DNA from: an uncultured Deferribacterales bacterium | GTDB taxonomy: Bacteria; Chrysiogenota; Deferribacteres; Deferribacterales; Mucispirillaceae | Direction of reading: 5' to 3' | Assembly: GCA_947853665.1 (NCBI GenBank) | Contig: CANTXF010000017.1 | Span: 62,001-126,000, forward strand | DNA length: 64,000 bases | In this document: piece by piece, positions 36,070 through 62,549 of the stretch | Numbering within the stretch: the first letter of the stretch is position 1 | How the letters are laid out: every line of letters starts with the position of its first letter | The notes under the pieces: model-generated | Database searches by the model: none | Told to the model about the DNA's origin: nothing | The model's input: the letters and a program-made list of their open reading frames with translations, nothing else | Position numbers and translations under genes: made by a program

Positions 36070-37554
36070 TTATCTGCGTATCACGGAGACGTGCTGCTTA
36101 TATACCCACCCGCTTCTGTCGGAGCCGAGGTTTATCTTTACCCAGTAGGGGTTGTCTGCAAGCACGGTAAATTCCTGCCCCCTCGTTACGGACGATATTT
36201 TAGGCGATTCTATCGTCGGAAGTTCTCTTACGTTAAGGGATGTCGCCTTTATGGCGATTATAGCCCCGGGAAGCAGGGCTCCGTCCGTTTCTTCCATTTC
36301 GGGGGTTCTTTCTTCCGGGAAGGCCTGCGGCGCGTTTTCTCCGGGAGCTTCCAATATGCCGGGGATAATGGCGGGCGCCTCCCTTTCCTCCGGTTCCGTT
36401 ATTTCCGGCGCAGGGGGTATATCTTCGCCGCCCGTTTCCGTCAAGGCGGTCATTTCATCCGGCTCCTCCGGGTTTTCGGCAGTGGCCGTCTGTGTTTCTG
36501 AAACCGTTTCCGCAGGGGCGAAAGGCTCGTATACGGGCGTTTCGGCAGCTCTGCCGGGTTCTGCGGTTTCCACCGGAGCGGGCCTTTCCGCCTGGGCCGT
36601 AATGGCTGCCACAGGCGGCATTTCTTTTTTGCCGTCTATGGAGGAAAAGAGTATAAACCCTCCTGCCGCGCATAAAGCCAGCGCCGCCGCTATGCCTCCC
36701 GTTTTCAGATATTTCATGGAGCGTTTGCGGCGTATGGTGCTCATTATTGTGTTTACGCTGGCGATAGCGCTTGTAAGGTGATCTTCCGTAATAGTGTAGG
36801 AGTTATCCAGAAAGGCCGCTATCATTGCCCGCTCCATAAGGGTGTTTACGAGGCGCGGGTTGCCCTTGGTTATCCTTGCGATTTTTCTTACAACTCCGCC
36901 GTGAACCCTTACGGAGCTTCTTCCTGCTTTTACCAGATGGGAATTTATATAATTTTTTATTTCGCTTTCGTCTATGTTTGAAAGGTAGGAATAAAGGGTT
37001 ATCCTCTGCTTGAGCTGCCGCAGCTCGTCGGAGTCGAGCTTGGCGGAAAGCTCCGGCTGGCCAGCAAGGACTATTTTTAACAGCTTCTCTTTCTCCGTTT
37101 CCAGATTGGAGAGTATGCGCAGCTCCTCCAGGGTTTCGGACGGCAGGTTCTGGGCCTCGTCTATTATTATTACGGCTTTTTTACCCTGTTCCTTTATACC
37201 TATGAGAAAATCCCTGAACTTTGAAAACAGCGCGTTTTTAGACATATCCGGGTCGGACTTCACGTTGAAATCCTCCAGTATGGCCATAAAAAGCTCCGCC
37301 GGAGTAAGGCTGGGAAAAAGGATATACGCTACCACCGTGTTTTCAGGCAGCTCGCTTATAAATTTGCGCAGGGTTATAGTCTTGCCGGTGCCGGGCTCGC
37401 CAACTATTACGGCGAAAGGCTCGTCCGATTCCAACATGTAGGTCAGTGTGTCAAGGGCTTCCTGATGCATTTTCGTAGGGTAGTAAAAATCAATATCCGG
37501 CGTTCTTTTAAATGGGTCTTCCCGGAACCCGAAAAATTCTGAAAAAGTTTTCAT
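36070..37554 (-). CDS. ExeA-like AAA ATPase with membrane span and SH3-type tail
   Basis: The 494-residue product (ATG 37554 with AAGGA four bases upstream; ATG 37572 possible) opens with F-S-E-F-F-G-F-R-E-D-P-F, the start of the ExeA/GspA ATPase group. The P-loop G-E-P-G-T-G-K-T and Walker B V-I-I-I-D-E-A-Q-N-L follow. A transmembrane helix lies near 285-305, then a Pro/Glu/Thr-rich spacer of about 130 residues, and a C-terminal SH3b domain (L-N-V-R-E-L-P to W-V-Y-K). ExeA-type proteins energise placement of secretin or pilus parts through the wall, often with a peptidoglycan-binding tail. No secretin gene is in the window, so the partner is unknown. Confidence 0.8.
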   Translation of the reverse strand: MKTFSEFFGFREDPFKRTPDIDFYYPTKMHQEALDTLTYMLESDEPFAVIVGEPGTGKTITLRKFISELPENTVVAYILFPSLTPAELFMAILEDFNVKSDPDMSKNALFSKFRDFLIGIKEQGKKAVIIIDEAQNLPSETLEELRILSNLETEKEKLLKIVLAGQPELSAKLDSDELRQLKQRITLYSYLSNIDESEIKNYINSHLVKAGRSSVRVHGGVVRKIARITKGNPRLVNTLMERAMIAAFLDNSYTITEDHLTSAIASVNTIMSTIRRKRSMKYLKTGGIAAALALCAAGGFILFSSIDGKKEMPPVAAITAQAERPAPVETAEPGRAAETPVYEPFAPAETVSETQTATAENPEEPDEMTALTETGGEDIPPAPEITEPEEREAPAIIPGILEAPGENAPQAFPEERTPEMEETDGALLPGAIIAIKATSLNVRELPTIESPKISSVTRGQEFTVLADNPYWVKINLGSDRSGWVYKQHVSVIRR

Positions 37555-37641
37555 CTCGTCCTTCGGCTGCATATTTCAACGCCGTATTTTAATTCATATT
37601 TAAAGCCGTGTCGAGAAAAAAACTTTTAAAACCGTCCTCTT

Positions 37642-39183
37642 TCAGACCTGCCTGGGCGAGTAGCTCTGAAAGCTTATGTCTTCCGTTTCCCTGTCGAAGT
37701 AAAATTCCACCTTTGTCATATCCGTTTTAAGCACGATCTGGGAATTGAAAATTTTTATTTTTATCCCGGCCCGGGCGTTATTTTCGATTATTATCCTGGG
37801 GTCCGGGTGGCAGGATTTCTTTTTGGTCTCCTCGAGTTTAGCTTCAAGAAGCGACTGTTTTCTTTTAAGCATACTGGCAGTTTCAAGCAGCTTGCGCACT
37901 TTCGGGTTCTTTACCACAGCCGGGTTTTTAAGGTCCGTCTGGGAAAGGACGCTCATGATTTTTTTAAGCGTTTCCCCCAACTGCTCAAGCTCCGCTTTTA
38001 TATTATAGGCTCTTTCCTCCATTTCCTGAGAAGTACCCGCCTCGATAAGCATATCGTTAGTGCCTTTGGAGCCAGCGTTATGCAGGTGTACCACGGAAAA
38101 GGCTCTTAAGGAGCCTCCGTTGACTATGGCGTCCTTGGAGGAGGTAAAAATCCTGTTGGCGGATAAAGCGGAGTTGAAGCAGTATTTTTTTATTTCTATG
38201 GAGCCTCTGGCGCTTATGCGTGAGTTTTCCGAATATCCGGTTACCACGTCTACGCCCGCTTTTACATATCCTTTGTTTCCCAGGCCCTTTATGCCGACCT
38301 TTATGTTGATTGAATTGCGGGCCGTAAGAACCGCGTCCTCGTCTATGCCTTCTATGATTATATCGTCCGCGTTTACGCTGAAGCCTGTGAGAACGTCTTT
38401 AGAGACGTACACGGTGCCTTCGAAATTAATGTTGCCGGTTCTGTAATCCACGTTGCCGTCTACGGAGAGCAGAGGCAGCACGGAAATCATCGTGCCGGTA
38501 AAAACAACGTGGCCGCTGCATTTGGCCCGGTATTCGGTTTTGTCCTCGTTTACCGTAACCCCGTCCATAGCTTCGATAATATTTTCCTTGCCCGGCATGG
38601 GGAATATTTCCGCCCCCGTAACGTCGAAACCCTTTGAGCCTTCCGTAGGCGGCGTTCGCTTTATAAGCAGGTCGCCTTTATTTACCATTATGAAATTTGT
38701 AAAATTTTTATAATCGACGCTGCCGTTATTAAGTAACTTGGGTTTCTGGCTGGGTTTTTCAAAAAGTATTCGTATTACGGCGTCTTTGCCGTCCACAACC
38801 GGCAGTGATTCCACGGCGGGGATTTTTTCGGCTATCATGCCCTGCCTGTAATACCCGGCAAACTCGGCGATAACGTCTTTTTTGATATATAGCGGCTCAA
38901 AATGCCAGCGTTCTTTAAGAATTTCTATTATATCTTCGTCGGAAAGGGTTTTTGTGCTGTTTATGCCGGGATATATCGATATTTCCGCTTTCGCTCTGTC
39001 AGGAGACACGGAAGCCCTTATAATAGGGTCGAAACGGCGCAGGGTTCTTACGTCCAGCACGTATTCGCCCTTATTGTCGTCGTTTTGTACCACGTTGTAT
39101 TCTTCCGGCAGAAGGGTGTATACGTTTTTCGCGACCATATCCAGTCTGGCGCGGCTCGTATCGCCGTAAGCGGTTAAAATCAT
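37642..39183 (-). CDS. DUF342/FapA-family protein
   Basis: The 513-residue product has the DUF342 layout. A variable N-terminal part is followed by a right-handed beta-helix-like region rich in short repeats (V-D-Y-R-T-G-N-I-N-F-E-G-T-V, then A-R-N-S-I-N-I-K-V). A coiled coil of about 390-465 with E-Q-L-G-E-T-L-K-K and a small beta-rich end complete it. The family includes FapA, reported to affect polymer and flagellar traits in vibrios and clostridia, but its biochemical role is not settled. It reads on the minus strand just upstream of the ExeA-like gene (69 bases apart), which may mean joint expression. Confidence 0.8.
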   Translation of the reverse strand: MILTAYGDTSRARLDMVAKNVYTLLPEEYNVVQNDDNKGEYVLDVRTLRRFDPIIRASVSPDRAKAEISIYPGINSTKTLSDEDIIEILKERWHFEPLYIKKDVIAEFAGYYRQGMIAEKIPAVESLPVVDGKDAVIRILFEKPSQKPKLLNNGSVDYKNFTNFIMVNKGDLLIKRTPPTEGSKGFDVTGAEIFPMPGKENIIEAMDGVTVNEDKTEYRAKCSGHVVFTGTMISVLPLLSVDGNVDYRTGNINFEGTVYVSKDVLTGFSVNADDIIIEGIDEDAVLTARNSINIKVGIKGLGNKGYVKAGVDVVTGYSENSRISARGSIEIKKYCFNSALSANRIFTSSKDAIVNGGSLRAFSVVHLHNAGSKGTNDMLIEAGTSQEMEERAYNIKAELEQLGETLKKIMSVLSQTDLKNPAVVKNPKVRKLLETASMLKRKQSLLEAKLEETKKKSCHPDPRIIIENNARAGIKIKIFNSQIVLKTDMTKVEFYFDRETEDISFQSYSPRQV

Positions 39184-39380: not shown

Positions 39381-40298
39381 TCAAGAAAAATGTTCGTAGC
39401 CTCTGGATGATATTTCCGTAAGGTTTTCGCCCGTTTTCAGGAAGCAGCCCGCTCCGGCGGAAACGGCGCCTATTTTAATAGGTTTTCTTCCCAGAGTTTT
39501 TTCAAAATCTCTTTCGATACGGGCGGCTGCGTTTTTTTCTGCCGTGAAAACCAGCGCGAATTCTTCTCCCGATGAAACGGCGTATGACGCCGCCTCTTTT
39601 TTCAGGAATGTCAGCTCCGGAAAGTTGAGGCGCTCCGCGTCTATGGTTATTTTAACTCCGCTCATGCGGGCTATATGGCCCGCGTCGGCGCCAAGCCCGT
39701 CGCTTACGTCAGCCGCTGCCGTTACCCCCTTTATGGAGCCCAGGAAAACGCCGGCTTCCTTTTCCGCCGTTTTTGCGTAATGGTCCAGCGAGCCCGCGGG
39801 ATGTTCCCTTATACCCAGCTCCTTTTCAAGCGAGACTTTTGCCAGGCCTACCGGCCTTGAAAGATACAGGACGTCGCCAGGCTTTGCGCCGCTTCTTAAA
39901 AGCAGGTTTTTTCCGCGTATGCCTATTATCGTCATGGACAGGAAAAGCCCGCCTGCGCTGGCGGAGGTGTCTCCGCCGATTATTTTTATCCCGTAAAACT
40001 TCGCCGCCTTTTCTGCGGCTTCCGCCAGAGCTTCCATATTTGTTTTGCCGTCCGCTCCCACGCCCAGAAGTGCGGATACGGGGCTTCCGCCCATGGCCGC
40101 TATATCGCTTACGTTGGAAGTAAAGAGTTTTTTGACGATTAAATCTATGGGGGCGGATTTCAGGAAATGTACGTTTTCCGCCATTATATCCTTAGCTATC
40201 AGATACTTGCCGCCGAAAAGAGCCGCGTCGTCGCCTATGCCTTCGGGATAGGGGCCTGAAATCCGCGCCATGCGGGCTATAAAATCAAATTCTTTCAT
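39381..40298 (-). CDS. thiL: Thiamine-monophosphate kinase
   Basis: The 305-residue product has the ThiL/PurM-like fold. It shows G-I-G-D-D-A-A-L near residue 21, G-G-D-T-S-A-S near 98 and V-S-D-G-L-G-A-D near 199, which bind Mg-ATP. It makes thiamine diphosphate, the cofactor used by KorB and IlvB in this window. It overlaps thiE by 14 bases and is the last gene of the minus-strand operon. Confidence 0.92.
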   Translation of the reverse strand: MKEFDFIARMARISGPYPEGIGDDAALFGGKYLIAKDIMAENVHFLKSAPIDLIVKKLFTSNVSDIAAMGGSPVSALLGVGADGKTNMEALAEAAEKAAKFYGIKIIGGDTSASAGGLFLSMTIIGIRGKNLLLRSGAKPGDVLYLSRPVGLAKVSLEKELGIREHPAGSLDHYAKTAEKEAGVFLGSIKGVTAAADVSDGLGADAGHIARMSGVKITIDAERLNFPELTFLKKEAASYAVSSGEEFALVFTAEKNAAARIERDFEKTLGRKPIKIGAVSAGAGCFLKTGENLTEISSRGYEHFS

Positions 40299-40926
40299 GG
40301 GAGGCTTTAATCAGCGCTTTTACCGCTTCGTAAGGCTCCGGCGAAGCGCATACGTAAGACGATACCGCAGGGCCCGCCACGCCGGTTTTCATTACTTCCG
40401 CCGCATTTTCAGCGGTTATCCCCCCTATGGCCACGGCAGGGACGGAAAGAAGCCCCGCTATGCGCCCGGCCCCTGAAAGGCCGATAACGGGGCGAAGGTC
40501 CTTTTTGGTGGATGTGGGAAATACGGGGCCTATCCCTGCGTAATCTCCCAGAAGGGAGGCTTTTTCCGCGTCCGCTCCGTTATTGCAGGATAGCCCTATA
40601 ATAAGCCCCGGAAAGGCTTTTCTTACAAGCTCCGGGGGCAGGTCTTTTACTCCCAGGTGCACGCCGTCGGCTCCGCAGCATTCGGCCACGTCCGCTCTGT
40701 CGTTTATTATGAAAAGGGGCTTTTCGCCTTTTAAGCCTTCCAGGTATTTTTTTATCGTAACGGCCCTTGCCGCCGTTTCCGCGCCGGAGGCGTATTTATC
40801 TCTGAGCTGCACCGCCGTGGCTCCGGCTTCCGTTATCTGGGCCATGAACTCCCCGAGGGGGACTTTCAGCATGGACGTTTCAAGAACTATGTAAAGCCTG
40901 AGCCTTTCCGGCGTGATTTTTGTCAT
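40285..40926 (-). CDS. thiE: Thiamine-phosphate synthase
   Basis: The 213-residue TIM-barrel enzyme joins the pyrimidine and thiazole halves of thiamine. A-V-Q-L-R-D-K near residue 38, F-I-I-N-D-R-A-D-V near 72 and G-A-D-G-V-H-L-G-V-K-D-L mark the family. F-P-T-S-T-K-K is the diphosphate loop. It shares an ATGA overlap with the Csd4-like gene and overlaps thiL by 14 bases. The thiazole and pyrimidine branches are not in the window. Confidence 0.94.
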   Translation of the reverse strand: MTKITPERLRLYIVLETSMLKVPLGEFMAQITEAGATAVQLRDKYASGAETAARAVTIKKYLEGLKGEKPLFIINDRADVAECCGADGVHLGVKDLPPELVRKAFPGLIIGLSCNNGADAEKASLLGDYAGIGPVFPTSTKKDLRPVIGLSGAGRIAGLLSVPAVAIGGITAENAAEVMKTGVAGPAVSSYVCASPEPYEAVKALIKASHERI

Positions 40927-42368
40927 CTTTCCGTTTCGAGGTAAATCACGGCGGCGGGGTTTTCGTCGTCCCCCGCTACTACGGGGTAAACGGAGCCTTT
41001 TTGGTCCACGGAATATTTTATCATCATTTTGCTGTCGGGCAGGGTTATTTTATACCCCCTGTCGTCGCCGGTGTTCCTTATGGCATCAGGCACCCAGCCT
41101 TTAAGGTTGAGAGGCTCTCCCGCGTCGTAAACCGTATCGCTGAAAAGCTTTATCAGCTCTACGGATGAGCCTTTCGGCACCGGTATTCTTTCCCCGTTTA
41201 CGGCCGCTCTGTATTTGCCGTCTATTTTCATAAGAACCATCCAGACAGTGCCTTTTTTGGCGGGCTGGGACACTTTTACGTTTATTTCGGACATTTTCTG
41301 GTTGTCCTTGCGGAAAACTATCTTTGTGTCTCCGTCTATACGCATGGGTTTTCCCAGGTCGTTAAGGGTGCCGTAGCCCAGTATGTCGCAGGTAACGCCC
41401 CTTGTGTAGTTCGATTCCACATAGGATACTTCCACTTCGTCTCCCGCCTTTATATAGATGGTATCTCCCGATTTGAACCGGCGGGATTCGCCGTTGACCC
41501 GTATTACGGCCGTTTCCATTTCCGGCTTTATTATCATTACCCGGGGCTGCTCCGGTACTATGTCCATCATCCTCATAAACTCGTTTACCGCGTAGTTGTG
41601 GTATCTTACGTTCTGCTCTATGGATTTTACGTTTTTGGAGCCTTCTATGCCGAAAGCCGGGATACATTCGTTCGTAAGCGCGTACCACGTGGCGGTTTTG
41701 CGCATATCTTTAAATCTGGACTTTTCGCTTCCCGTCTCCGTGTTGAAAAGATGCAGGCGCATATTTTTGTCCTCGATTTTGGCGTTTACGTTTTCGAGGG
41801 CTTCTTCCGCCATTTCACGCAGCATTATGGTTTTGTTGTCGCAGGAATACTGGGCTTCGTCTATTATTATGGACTGGCCGAACCTGTTGGGATTGCGTGA
41901 TTTATCCACGTATTTCGGATTATGGAAACCCCAGCCGTCGTGAAGGTTCAAAAGTATGTCCGCCTCTCCCATAAGCTCTTTCAGCTTGTTTACCACTTCT
42001 CCCTGAATTTCCCCGTGGTTTTCGTCGGAAAAAAGCCTGTTCATATCGCCGTCTGGAGCCCTGTTGAAAAGAATGACGGATTTCATGTTGGCTCTCGGCA
42101 CCACTATAAGGTTGCCTTTTTCAAGAGCCAGGTCCGAGTACAGGTCGGCGGAAAGGAAGCCGCCCGGCTCGTCTCCCTGTATACCGCCTATTATAAGCAT
42201 GGTGCTGCCGTCTATGCGGCCGTTTATCCTGAATATATGCAGCTCGAAATTAGTGCCTTCAAAATATACTTCGTGGCTGTGGGACGGCCTGTCCGCCGCG
42301 AAAACCGCCTGCGCACACATAAAAACCGCGGTTATAGCCGTTATTATAGCTCTCAATTTGCCTTCCAT
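40923..42368 (-). CDS. Csd4/Pgp1-like (M99) peptidoglycan D,L-carboxypeptidase
   Basis: The 481-residue product has a signal peptide (cleavage near A-V-F-A-A) and a zinc carboxypeptidase domain. Its metal motif is G-G-I-Q-G-D-E-P-G-G (Gln64, Glu67) with His143 in L-N-L-H-D-G-W-G-F-H. A glutamine ligand in place of His is the mark of the M99 family, known from Helicobacter Csd4 and Campylobacter Pgp1, which trim tripeptides to dipeptides and are needed for helical shape. The C-terminal 240 residues are beta-rich. It overlaps the Csd6-like gene by 16 bases and thiE by four. A succinylglutamate-desuccinylase-like role is a less likely alternative. Confidence 0.78.
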   Translation of the reverse strand: MEGKLRAIITAITAVFMCAQAVFAADRPSHSHEVYFEGTNFELHIFRINGRIDGSTMLIIGGIQGDEPGGFLSADLYSDLALEKGNLIVVPRANMKSVILFNRAPDGDMNRLFSDENHGEIQGEVVNKLKELMGEADILLNLHDGWGFHNPKYVDKSRNPNRFGQSIIIDEAQYSCDNKTIMLREMAEEALENVNAKIEDKNMRLHLFNTETGSEKSRFKDMRKTATWYALTNECIPAFGIEGSKNVKSIEQNVRYHNYAVNEFMRMMDIVPEQPRVMIIKPEMETAVIRVNGESRRFKSGDTIYIKAGDEVEVSYVESNYTRGVTCDILGYGTLNDLGKPMRIDGDTKIVFRKDNQKMSEINVKVSQPAKKGTVWMVLMKIDGKYRAAVNGERIPVPKGSSVELIKLFSDTVYDAGEPLNLKGWVPDAIRNTGDDRGYKITLPDSKMMIKYSVDQKGSVYPVVAGDDENPAAVIYLETER

Positions 42369-43636
42369 GTTTCGGATATTATTTTAAAGCTTCCGGGGCA
42401 TCCTTCGAAAACGAGGGTCTTCGTCCCCAGGTCGGATACCGCCCCGCCGGAATATTTTTGGGTAAAGACGGCTTTATACGTGTTGCCCGCCGTTTCCCAC
42501 CTTATTCCGGAAATTTCCAGATTTATCTCCCCGGCTTTTTCAAATACGGCTTTCTTATAATCGCGCCATTCTTTTACGCCCATTCTGCCGTTTCTGAAAT
42601 TTTCGGAATAATATTCGATATATTTTTCCGCGTCGCCTCCGCGCCACGCTTCGGCCCAGCCGTTTACAAAGCTTTCGACCCTTTCCTTTATGATTGACGA
42701 AGGGGAAAGTGGAGATACCTCTTCGGCTATGAGCTTAAGGCCGCCTCCGTCGTTTGCGAAATAATACCGCTTATTGCCGTATGACGTGATATTCGGGGCG
42801 CAGTAAAACTGGTTCGTGTCCACCACCAGATTGCCGCCGTTCTGGATAAATATTTTCGTGTCGTCCGTTTCTATCGTTTTATCTTTATAAAGGCCCATCA
42901 GATACTTTTTGGATGACAGATAGGACGCGGCGTTTTTGCCCTGCCCCCTGTACGACGGGTGAACGTAGTTTTTAAAGGCTTCGTAGTCGCTGTCCTTCCA
43001 GGAATTTATAAAACCGTCGAAAAGGGCGAAAAGCTCCTCCCGTTTGGATTTATATTCTTCTTCCGTAAGCATGTACGCTTTATCAGTTATTATTACCGGG
43101 TCTTTTATTTCCGTTTTTTCTTTCAGGGCCGTCAGGTCCTCGTTATGGAGGGCGACGCAGCCCTGCGTCGTGCTTTTGCCATTTACAGGGTCCCTGCCGT
43201 GTATCCAGATGCCGTGGCCCGTTTTTTTCCTGATTTTATCCACCGGGTTGGGATAATTAAGCGGAAAAGAGCCTGCTCCGTATATTTTCGCGTAATCGCC
43301 GTACATTTTCAGCAGCTTTTCGCCGGAGCGCCACGTCGTTATATAGTATACGCCTTCAGGAGTTTTCCCGTCGCCGCTTACCATTTTGTCCCCTTCGTTG
43401 ACGCCGTATATTATGGGGTATTTTCCGCTTACTGAAAACCCGTCGCCCAGAGCTTCGATTTCATACAGCTGCCTGCTGTCCTTATCCACAAGTATCACGT
43501 CGGTTTTTACCGCGTTTCTTGCCATTACGTTGGCTATCACCGTTCGGGATGCGGCCGTCTCCGAATCGCCAGCAAAGGCGAAACCGGCCTGCGCCGCGGC
43601 CGTTAAAAACGCGAGCAGCTTAAAATATTTTTTCAT
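42353..43636 (-). CDS. Csd6/Pgp2-like YkuD-domain L,D-peptidase
   Basis: The 427-residue product has a signal peptide (A-G-F-A-F-A-G) and a YkuD domain. The active pattern is H-G-I-W-I-H-G-R with, 13 residues later, T-Q-G-C-V-A-L (Cys160). The Ala after G-C-V, where transpeptidases mostly have Arg, is as in the Csd6/DpaA branch. Residues from about 205 and again from about 325 look like two NTF2-like domains, the tail type seen in Csd6 and Pgp2. Those enzymes cut tetrapeptides to tripeptides, supplying the substrate of Csd4/Pgp1, encoded next. It follows the methyltransferase gene by 18 bases. Confidence 0.8.
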   Translation of the reverse strand: MKKYFKLLAFLTAAAQAGFAFAGDSETAASRTVIANVMARNAVKTDVILVDKDSRQLYEIEALGDGFSVSGKYPIIYGVNEGDKMVSGDGKTPEGVYYITTWRSGEKLLKMYGDYAKIYGAGSFPLNYPNPVDKIRKKTGHGIWIHGRDPVNGKSTTQGCVALHNEDLTALKEKTEIKDPVIITDKAYMLTEEEYKSKREELFALFDGFINSWKDSDYEAFKNYVHPSYRGQGKNAASYLSSKKYLMGLYKDKTIETDDTKIFIQNGGNLVVDTNQFYCAPNITSYGNKRYYFANDGGGLKLIAEEVSPLSPSSIIKERVESFVNGWAEAWRGGDAEKYIEYYSENFRNGRMGVKEWRDYKKAVFEKAGEINLEISGIRWETAGNTYKAVFTQKYSGGAVSDLGTKTLVFEGCPGSFKIISETWKAN

Positions 43637-43654: not shown

Positions 43655-45016
43655 TTACCATTCTATATTTTTACCGTACAGAAAATATCTGTCCAGCTTG
43701 TTTTTAAGAACGCCCTGCGCTGGCTTTACGGGGCCCAGGGCAAGCCCTTCGCAGAAAAGGGCCTTTCCTTTATATTCCGCCGTAAGCGGCAAGTCAAATC
43801 CTTTCAGATAGGCCTCCGCCTCTTTCCGGGAAACTTCCGTCCTTATATTTTCCGCCGCGTATCCGCCAAACTCCCACAGGCCCTGAGCCGTAGGTTCCGC
43901 GTTTTTTCCGGCTATTCTGTATATATTAAGGCCGCGCCTTTTAAAACATATTCCGGGAAACGCTCCGGGCATGGTTTCCGCATAGCCCCTGTTTTCCGCT
44001 TCCGTAACGTTTATATTGCCGGGGATTTTAGTGAAATGCTCCTTAAAGAAACTCTTTTGCCTTTCCGTGAGAGCGCGTTCGGCCGGTTCTCTTCGGGGCG
44101 GCTCTCCCTTTTTCCTGATTACCGCGGTAAAAAATCCGTCGGCGGAAGATGGAGAAGGCATTATGCGGGCCACTTTGCCGTCTATTTCGGAAATCCCGGA
44201 AAGGCCCGTGCCGGAAAATCCGGCGGCTTCGGCAAGTTCCGCTTCTTTCTGGGTGTCCAGCAGATATTTTACCGCCAGCTCGTTTTCTTCAAGGCTCATG
44301 GTGCAGGTGGAATATACGAGGGTTCCGCCGGGAGCAAGGCAGGAAAATGCCGAGGCCATAAGCTGCTTCTGGAGGGCCGCCATGCGCTCCACCAGTTCGC
44401 GGCCCCACTGGGCCTGCACCGTTTTATCGCGGAATATTTTATTTTCGTTGCTGCATGGGGCGTCCAGCAGAACACCGTCGAAAACGTCTTTAAAGCAGCC
44501 GCCGAGAAGCCTGCCGTCCATAGACACGGTTTTTACGTCGTAGCAGCCGTATTTTTCAAGGTTAAAATGGAGTGATTTAAGCCTGGAGGAGGAAAGCTCG
44601 TTGGCCACTATGGCCCCTCTGCGGCCGGTATAGTCCGAAAGGGCGCAGGTCTTGCCGCCGGGAGCTGCGGAAACGTCCAGCATCAGGGGATTTTCCGGCA
44701 TTGCGGAGGCCAGTATCTGGGCGGGCACCACGGACGACGGGTTCATAATATATGCCCCGCCCGTCTGAAAGGACAGGGACGAGGTAATGTTTTCCCCGCC
44801 TTCCTTTACCGAGTAGACTCCTCTGTAACCCTCCAGCGGCGAAAGGGACGCGCTTTGCGAAAGCTCTTTAACGTAGCGGGCCCCCCTTGTTTCCGCTATG
44901 CGGACGTGGCGGCCCCTGGGGGAGGAAAGGGCGTTTTCAAAGGCGTCGTACCCGTCTCCCAGTAGCGGAGCGTAAACCGCTCTGAATCTTTCTTTCCAGT
45001 CGGTGTTTTCCTTCAT
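43655..45016 (-). CDS. RsmF/NOP2-type RNA (cytosine-5) methyltransferase
   Basis: The 453-residue product has the RsmB/NOP2/Sun methyltransferase core. The SAM loop is S-A-A-P-G-G-K-T near residue 115. The two active cysteines are in L-L-D-A-P-C-S-N-E and Y-S-T-C-T-M-S-L-E-E-N-E. After the core comes a C-terminal domain of about 130 residues, as in RsmF, probably PUA-like for RNA binding. A-P-C-S-N-E-N departs from the common A-P-C-S-G-E-G. 16S rRNA m5C1407 modification is the likely role. It is the first gene of the minus-strand operon leading to csd6/csd4-like, thiE and thiL. Confidence 0.88.
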   Translation of the reverse strand: MKENTDWKERFRAVYAPLLGDGYDAFENALSSPRGRHVRIAETRGARYVKELSQSASLSPLEGYRGVYSVKEGGENITSSLSFQTGGAYIMNPSSVVPAQILASAMPENPLMLDVSAAPGGKTCALSDYTGRRGAIVANELSSSRLKSLHFNLEKYGCYDVKTVSMDGRLLGGCFKDVFDGVLLDAPCSNENKIFRDKTVQAQWGRELVERMAALQKQLMASAFSCLAPGGTLVYSTCTMSLEENELAVKYLLDTQKEAELAEAAGFSGTGLSGISEIDGKVARIMPSPSSADGFFTAVIRKKGEPPRREPAERALTERQKSFFKEHFTKIPGNINVTEAENRGYAETMPGAFPGICFKRRGLNIYRIAGKNAEPTAQGLWEFGGYAAENIRTEVSRKEAEAYLKGFDLPLTAEYKGKALFCEGLALGPVKPAQGVLKNKLDRYFLYGKNIEW

Positions 45017-61511: not shown

Positions 61512-62549
61512 ATGATCGTATCAGTCGACGCCATGGGCGGTGATTTCGCCCCGGAACAGGTTGTAAAGGGCGCGTTGAAGGCCGTTGAGGATTATCCCGA
61601 TACGGAGGTCGTCCTTGTGGGCGACAGAAGCAGGATACAGGAAGAGCTTGCAAAGTGTTCGCCTGGCAGCCATCCCCGGATAAGCGTATTTCACGCCGAG
61701 CAGGTGGTCGAAATGGACGACCACCCGTCCGAAATCGTGAGGGGCAAGCGCAAGTCTTCCATGCACGAGGGGCTTAAGCTCGTAAAAGAGGGTAAGGCGG
61801 ACGCTTTTTTCAGCGCGGGAAATTCCGGGGCCGTAATGGCCGTCGCCATGGTTACCCTTGGGCTTCTCGAAGGCGTTTCCCGCCCGGCCATAGGCACTAT
61901 ACTGCCATGCGCCTCCCCCCGCGGCTATTTTTTTATGCTGGACGTGGGGGCAAACGTTGACTGCAAGCCGGAGCATCTGCTCACTTTCGCCATAATGGGC
62001 TCCGCTTACGCGCGGAAAGTCCTCAAAATAGCCGACCCTACCGTGGGCCTTCTCAATAACGGGGAGGAGGAAGGCAAGGGCGACATCCTTACTAAAGCCG
62101 TATACCCCATACTTAAAGACTGCGATCCGGTGCATTTCGTAGGCAACGTGGAAGGCAAGGCCCTTTTCAAGGGCGAGGCGGACGTGGTGGTGTGCGACGG
62201 TTTCGTAGGCAATATCGCCCTTAAAGTAAGCGAATCTGTTTCTAATTTTCTTTTTAAAACCCTTAAAGCGGAGCTTATGAGTTCGTTCAGGTCAAAACTG
62301 GGTGCTTTAATATCCAAAGGGGCCTTTATGAACGTAAGACGGCGGGGAGACAGCTCCCAGTACGGCGGCGCTCCTCTTCTCGGCGTTAAGGGCGTGTGCG
62401 TCATAGGCCACGGCTCGTCCGACTATGTGGCGGTGGCAAACGGAATAAGGGTTGCGAGAGAAGCGGTCATCAACAGAATGAACGAAGCCATTACAGACGA
62501 CGTTAAAAACGCTTTAACCAACATTATCAACTCTAAATATTTTCTTTAG
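61512..62549 (+). CDS. plsX: Phosphate acyltransferase PlsX
   Basis: The 345-residue enzyme makes acyl-phosphate from acyl-ACP, for acylation of glycerol 3-phosphate by PlsY. Typical segments are V-D-A-M-G-G-D-F-A-P-E near the start, S-A-G-N-S-G-A-V-M-A near 100, N-G-E-E-E-G-K-G near 176 and the late G-H-G-S-S-D. It is peripheral to the membrane. It lies 13 bases after rpmF. The next gene is fabD rather than the more common fabH. Confidence 0.96.
   Translation: MIVSVDAMGGDFAPEQVVKGALKAVEDYPDTEVVLVGDRSRIQEELAKCSPGSHPRISVFHAEQVVEMDDHPSEIVRGKRKSSMHEGLKLVKEGKADAFFSAGNSGAVMAVAMVTLGLLEGVSRPAIGTILPCASPRGYFFMLDVGANVDCKPEHLLTFAIMGSAYARKVLKIADPTVGLLNNGEEEGKGDILTKAVYPILKDCDPVHFVGNVEGKALFKGEADVVVCDGFVGNIALKVSESVSNFLFKTLKAELMSSFRSKLGALISKGAFMNVRRRGDSSQYGGAPLLGVKGVCVIGHGSSDYVAVANGIRVAREAVINRMNEAITDDVKNALTNIINSKYFL

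Follow-up and report, generated by a model that had tools for sequence, protein, structure and literature searches.

A linked pair of Csd4-like and Csd6-like genes in Deferribacterota, predicted to trim peptidoglycan stem peptides and to influence cell curvature

Two overlapping genes of an uncultured Deferribacterales bacterium (GenBank assembly GCA_947853665.1, contig CANTXF010000017.1) raise the question of whether peptidoglycan-trimming enzymes known from Helicobacter pylori and Campylobacter jejuni also act on cell shape in the phylum Deferribacterota. The window, meaning the whole stretch of DNA analysed, covers 64,000 nucleotides (positions 62,001 to 126,000 of the contig). One gene encodes an M99-type peptidase resembling H. 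pylori Csd4 (C. jejuni Pgp1) and the other a YkuD/NTF2 protein resembling Csd6 (Pgp2). A sequence-only reading had proposed this correspondence, with an overlap of 16 bases between the open reading frames (ORFs) and the metal ligands Q64, E67 and H143. Each of these points holds in the analysis presented here, which places both ORFs on the minus strand at the stated coordinates (Table 1), and it is quite probable that the pair sets curvature by trimming stem peptides in series, from tetra- to tri- to dipeptides.

The M99 protein is of the Csd4/Pgp1 type by fold, architecture and active site. It matches Pfam Peptidase_M99 (PF17033) at 122.4 bits, against a cut-off of 27, and solved Csd4 chains in the PDB at 8.8e-28. 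The QxxExnH metal motif is present as Q64, E67 and H143 in the protein sequence, and E242 aligns to the Csd4 stretch containing the Glu of that enzyme. Across an alignment of 117 M99 rows, which include repeats of some genomes, E67, R103, R111 and H143 are kept in each of the 116 rows that could be read, and E242 is kept in 115 of them. The AlphaFold model (here and below, built with the window protein and named relatives as input) has a mean predicted local distance difference test score (pLDDT) of 91.1 and consists of a catalytic domain followed by beta-barrel and immunoglobulin-like (Ig-like) domains, as in the M99 family. Its residues 42-480 align with residues 19-438 of Csd4 (4wcn) at Z 32, over 363 residues and with 26% identity; the root-mean-square deviation (rmsd) of 12 reflects domains shifted relative to one another. 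This structure comparison had been set beforehand as the test of the assignment, the alternative being a succinylglutamate desuccinylase/aspartoacylase-type deacylase. Deacylases are the next family for the model (3cdx, Z 21), and the protein reaches Pfam AstE_AspA_cat at 28.1 bits, barely above the cut-off of 25. This likeness, however, extends over 202 residues of the catalytic domain only, whereas the M99 fold is matched end to end, across all domains. Score, fold coverage and domain composition thus rule out a deacylase, an identity to which we assign a negligible probability. By homology, the protein would act as a D,L-carboxypeptidase on muramyl-tripeptide.

The YkuD protein is a member of the Csd6/Pgp2/Bd1075 family. 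A YkuD domain (PF03734, 64.5 bits) is followed by Cds6_C/NTF2 (PF24125, 88 bits) in two stretches, and the PDB matches are to Bdellovibrio Bd1075 (4.7e-35), Csd6 (1.1e-23) and Pgp2 (5e-16). In the AlphaFold model (mean pLDDT 93.2), residues 31-310 align with Bd1075 (7o21) at Z 30.6 and rmsd 1.9 over 263 residues; Z is 26.5 for Csd6 and 26.0 for Pgp2. Beyond this match, residues 312-427 adopt a second NTF2 fold (Z about 16 to NTF2 structures), a feature absent from the sequence-only reading. All 35 relatives in alignment A4 possess YkuD and Cds6_C, every row has residues in the extra NTF2 region, and H146, G147 and C160 are invariant. A YkuD fold would also suit a true L,D-transpeptidase, making 3-3 cross-links or attaching lipoproteins, or a DpaA-like amidase, and there are weak matches to the NCBIfam LdtF/DpaA/YafK family and, by Foldseek, to DpaA (8ikr). 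Yet the NCBIfam score of 25.5 bits lies far under the cut-off of 365, and Foldseek gives E 1e-7 for DpaA versus 1e-18 to 1e-24 for Bd1075, Csd6 and Pgp2, matches that also span the NTF2 domain. In addition, the combination of YkuD with NTF2 has been regarded as peculiar to Csd6 and homologous proteins (PMC4599014). A transpeptidase or amidase is therefore disfavoured and very unlikely, and the fold match makes the protein a candidate carboxypeptidase. Both window proteins start with a hydrophobic, signal-peptide-like stretch, as read from their sequences.

The two genes are present or absent together within the phylum. Among 50 Deferribacterota genomes (the window genome, G000, and 49 others), 43 have M99 above its cut-off and 43 have Cds6_C, the same seven being without either. 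The genes are linked in 40 of the 43 pair-bearing genomes: the csd6-like gene lies immediately upstream in 27 of 30 fetched M99 loci, and in 13 other genomes the two are close by coordinates. The three fetched loci without a linked csd6-like gene are those of Chrysiogenia (f10). The order rsmF-csd6-csd4, which includes the methyltransferase gene upstream of the pair in the window, also occurs in Mucispirillum and Denitrovibrio relatives. In five of the seven pair-less genomes (G034, G045, G031, G048 and G049) rsmF was likewise not found, so that, where these genomes are incomplete, loss is no more likely than an assembly gap; true losses are claimed for G015 and G017 only. An M99 gene on a contig labelled Methylomirabilis (L054:9956-11398) falls inside the Deferribacterota clade, with no Csd6-like gene detected nearby, and represents either transfer or mis-binning.

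Outside the phylum, the linkage recurs in loci picked by M99 alone, which rejects a chance pair of ORFs. When named genomes were scanned with the M99 alignment, 80 loci were recovered, several from genomes of the phylum set. In 70 of them the csd6-like gene lies upstream of M99, either next to it or with one gene in between. It abuts M99 in 39 loci, at spacings of -160 to +66 when the furthest upstream start codon is used (the -16 spacing of the window recurs in ten of these), and lies 562-1251 bases upstream in another 31. No csd6-like gene was detected in five loci despite at least 2.5 kb of upstream DNA, and five have too little upstream DNA. Linked pairs occur in Nitrospirota, Gammaproteobacteria (Balneatrix, Pokkaliibacter, Chromatiaceae), Neomarinimicrobiota/Fidelibacterota and deltaproteobacterial lineages. 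Trees of the two proteins, built over 84 rows that include a duplicate of the window (L001), agree, with a distance correlation of 0.80 that none of 2000 permutations equalled and 38 supported splits in common out of 51 and 50. Shared ancestry alone can yield such agreement, which thus demonstrates joint inheritance and not interaction. The sequence-only reading had presented the pair as an extension beyond Campylobacterota. The host does belong to Deferribacterota, but the extension is not new in kind, because adjacent pgp1-pgp2 genes were reported from a deltaproteobacterium and Persephonella in 2014 (PMC3961634).

What the pair does can be proposed from its characterised relatives, which suggest its substrates, order of action and effect on shape. 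Both products would be periplasmic peptidoglycan carboxypeptidases acting in series. The Csd6-like enzyme, kept on the wall by its NTF2 domains, would take the terminal D-alanine off tetrapeptide stems to leave tripeptides, from which the Csd4-like enzyme, with its Gln-Glu-His metal site, would then cut off meso-diaminopimelic acid to leave dipeptides. Trimming that is uneven along the cylinder may bend the cell. Like Csd4 and Pgp1, the window M99 protein has the three-domain fold, the Q-x-x-E...H metal site, two Arg residues and a catalytic Glu, and a functional link to a Csd6/Pgp2 partner is suggested here by homology and linkage. Unlike H. pylori Csd4, to which it is 21-26% identical, it is encoded by a gene that overlaps that of its partner; csd4 and csd6 are presumably apart in the H. 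pylori genome. The partner shares with Csd6 and Pgp2 the L,D-carboxypeptidase-type YkuD domain and an NTF2 domain, but it has two NTF2 domains where Csd6 has one, and no counterpart of the N-terminal dimerisation domain of Csd6 (PMC4599014) was seen in it. Bd1075, its closest solved relative, combines YkuD with one NTF2 domain (PMC8938487), after which the window protein adds a second. As in the linked pgp1-pgp2 pairs of Nitratiruptor, Nautilia, Desulfococcus and Persephonella (PMC3961634), the genes are immediate neighbours, although the host here is a member of Deferribacterota. In C. jejuni, Pgp2 makes tripeptides and Pgp1 turns them into dipeptides (PMC3961634, PMC5335918). Loss of Csd4 or Pgp1 gives straight cells (PMC3310797, PMC3310789), and Bd1075, which bends Bdellovibrio, depends on its NTF2 domain to be positioned on the convex side (PMC8938487).

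A natural loss of the pair allows genes and shapes to be compared. Both genes, and indeed any YkuD protein, are missing from Flexistipes sinusarabici (G015) and its close relative G017. In both genomes, rsmF is directly followed by an HD-domain gene, the flanks abutting (L152, L153), while their congener G016 (L154; contig of L048, UBA1873) holds five genes between the same flanks, in the order GGDEF response regulator, csd6-like, csd4-like, methyl-accepting chemotaxis protein (MCP) and PAS-GGDEF. Loss at this syntenic site is the simpler reading, since the rsmF-csd6-csd4 order is also found in other genera of the phylum. F. sinusarabici is described as non-motile rods, straight to acutely bent (PMC3236037). 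The pair is present in vibrioid Denitrovibrio (G018), vibrio-shaped Calditerrivibrio (G006:C2) and spiral Desulfurispirillum (G003), shapes being as published, and the phylum is described as curved rods or spiral-shaped (PMC12887300). For Deferribacter, no shape statement was found in the available text of PMC6896113. Published shapes thus fit presence or absence of the pair in the species compared.

Several observations weigh against a role in curvature. The Flexistipes block is also without the three regulator genes (GGDEF response regulator, MCP and PAS-GGDEF), its cells are "straight to acutely bent" rather than simply straight, and a correlation of genes with shape can come from shared ancestry alone. 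Chrysiogenia have the pair unlinked, with His replacing the Gln ligand, and Pgp2-type proteins occur in non-curved bacteria too (PMC3961634). Stem-peptide trimming might accordingly serve wall maintenance, cross-link control or recycling, with curvature due to other elements, for example bactofilin and M23 endopeptidases. Bactofilin and M23 peptidases were present in all 12 genomes tested, Flexistipes and further pair-less ones among them, a result that leaves them available for such a role but also means that they do not vary with the pair, which is absent from the less regularly curved Flexistipes. Loss of Csd4, Pgp1, Pgp2 or Bd1075, moreover, straightens the species studied (PMC3310797, PMC3310789, PMC3961634, PMC8938487). 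Trimming for maintenance, with shape set elsewhere, is consequently unlikely, though less so than a transpeptidase or amidase, and serial trimming that sets curvature is preferred.

The exceptional Chrysiogenia proteins concern the metal site itself. Position 64 of the M99 alignment is Gln in 113 rows, His in three and unreadable in one, and the three His-64 proteins are those of three Chrysiogenia: L002, L003 and L004 (G003, G002 and G001). QxxExnH has been termed strictly conserved among Csd4 homologues (PMC4220969). The best match of the protein from G003 is the structure of engineered Gln46His Csd4 (4wcm), and this protein (L002), the one compared, is nearer to H. pylori Csd4, at 157-161 bits, than the protein of the window, at about 100 bits. 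These M99 proteins form a long branch, and their genes are unlinked from the csd6-like gene. The Chrysiogenia Csd6-like protein (L031-L033) has an N-terminal extension resembling TPR repeats and a single Cds6_C match.

In many deltaproteobacterial relatives, a third gene lies between the pair. Wherever the gap is the larger one (31 of the 80 loci), it contains an ORF of one unnamed family, encoding about 250-310 residues. In these proteins a short N-terminal part is followed by a single hydrophobic segment and a coiled-coil-like stretch, and the C-terminal domain is conserved. A model built from 14 members matches the remaining 17 of 17, no match being worse than 2.4e-24; the csd6 ORF is cut by the contig end in two of these 17 loci, which had been classed "elsewhere" by rule for that reason. 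The gene is also found upstream of M99 in five of the ten loci without detected csd6. One of the 39 abutting loci encodes a fusion (L102:2991-4529) that joins the C-terminal domain of this family to a Csd6-like protein in which NTF2 is matched only once. Six members gave no Pfam match above cut-off, 14 gave no NCBIfam match better than 0.003, and the best match of the family profile in the PDB was 0.00083, almost all matches falling in the membrane/coiled-coil part. A search for the gene in Deferribacterota with A2 returned weak N-terminal matches alone, in 17 of 50 genomes and at E 1.8e-6 or worse. The window-genome match was rejected as a third gene; it lies in a 326-codon frame also bearing an M23 match and is interpreted as the anchor part of an M23 enzyme. 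The third protein is a candidate anchor of the trimming pair.

It is close to an even question, leaning slightly towards doubt, whether a two-NTF2 Csd6 and a Csd4 make up a co-translated cassette that serves as a shape module of old origin and wide distribution, shared by at least five phyla and working with lineage-specific anchors. The deltaproteobacterial membrane coiled-coil protein would be among these anchors, and Flexistipes would be a natural knock-out.

The neighbours of the pair in the window are all on the minus strand, and the rRNA (ribosomal RNA) methylation and thiamine genes named in the sequence-only reading were recovered as RsmB/F-type, ThiE and ThiL. The methyltransferase falls under NCBIfam equivalog cut-offs. 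Along rsmF-like, csd6-like, csd4-like, thiE and thiL, spacings are +18, -16, -4 and -14 bases. A promoter and terminator scan performed near chance (8 found versus 5.6 expected; 16 versus 10.8) and is therefore not used to place an operon boundary. Two more genes follow downstream on the same strand (36070-37572 and 37642-39183), for an SH3-containing AAA ATPase of XrtA type and a FapA-like protein, an order found again in Mucispirillum L051, L056 and L061. A clustered bactofilin-Csd1 module was not found near the pair; the bactofilin and three M23 genes of the window genome are on other contigs. In G003, a bactofilin gene (409179-409466) adjoins an M23 gene (409592-409876).

Table 1. Features of the csd6-like/csd4-like locus (window coordinates) and named loci carrying the third gene.
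Feature	Position	Strand	Remarks
csd4/pgp1-like M99 D,L-carboxypeptidase (predicted)	40923..42368	-	481 aa; Pfam, PDB and fold matches
Csd4-like catalytic domain, residues ~29-270	41559..42284	-	residue alignment with Csd4
Csd4-like Q64 codon	42177-42179	-	metal-ligand position
Csd4-like E67 codon	42168-42170	-	metal-ligand position
Csd4-like H143 codon	41940-41942	-	
Csd4-like E242 codon	41643-41645	-	catalytic-Glu candidate
Csd4-like C-terminal beta domains, residues ~280-480	40929..41531	-	equivalents of Csd4 beta-barrel and Ig-like domains
csd6/pgp2/bd1075-like L,D-carboxypeptidase candidate	42353..43636	-	427 aa; PF03734, PF24125, PDB 7o21, 4xzz, 6xj6
YkuD catalytic domain, residues 46-183	43088..43501	-	His146; Cys160 (codon 43157-43159)
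First NTF2-like domain, residues ~192-309	42710..43063	-	common to Csd6/Pgp2/Bd1075; model, 7o21 match
Second (extra) NTF2-like domain, residues ~313-426	42359..42700	-	PF24125 best stretch 321-422; NTF2 fold matches
16-base overlap, csd6-like 3' end and csd4-like start	42353..42368	-	
RsmB/F-type rRNA cytosine-C5 methyltransferase	43655..45016	-	upstream neighbour, 18-base gap; PF01189 144.8 bits
ThiE thiamine-phosphate synthase	40285..40926	-	downstream, 4-base overlap; TIGR00693 147.3 bits, cut-off 145.1
ThiL thiamine-phosphate kinase	39381..40298	-	TIGR01379 211.1 bits, cut-off 184.15
Third-gene loci	L072, L074, L077-L079, L083, L087, L088, L090-L098, L100, L103, L105, L108-L111, L113, L115-L120		

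A linked trimming pair is known as a kind; what is added here is its membership in Deferribacterota, the tandem-NTF2 variant and the natural loss. No report of the pair in this phylum was found in the open-licence literature, "csd" being absent from word searches of the available text of PMC12887300, PMC5285517 and PMC9636832. The less expected features are the tandem NTF2 domains, the natural His ligand of the Chrysiogenia Csd4 and the deltaproteobacterial gene between the pair. The last two open new ways into a pathway known chiefly from work on two pathogens. As the Csd6-like protein is the sole YkuD enzyme found in the window genome, muropeptides of a mutant should read out cleanly, and the pair makes a role in shape testable outside the known pathogens. 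For a phylum of free-living and gut-dwelling vibrioid or spiral bacteria, it provides a candidate shape mechanism together with a congeneric comparison of presence and absence.

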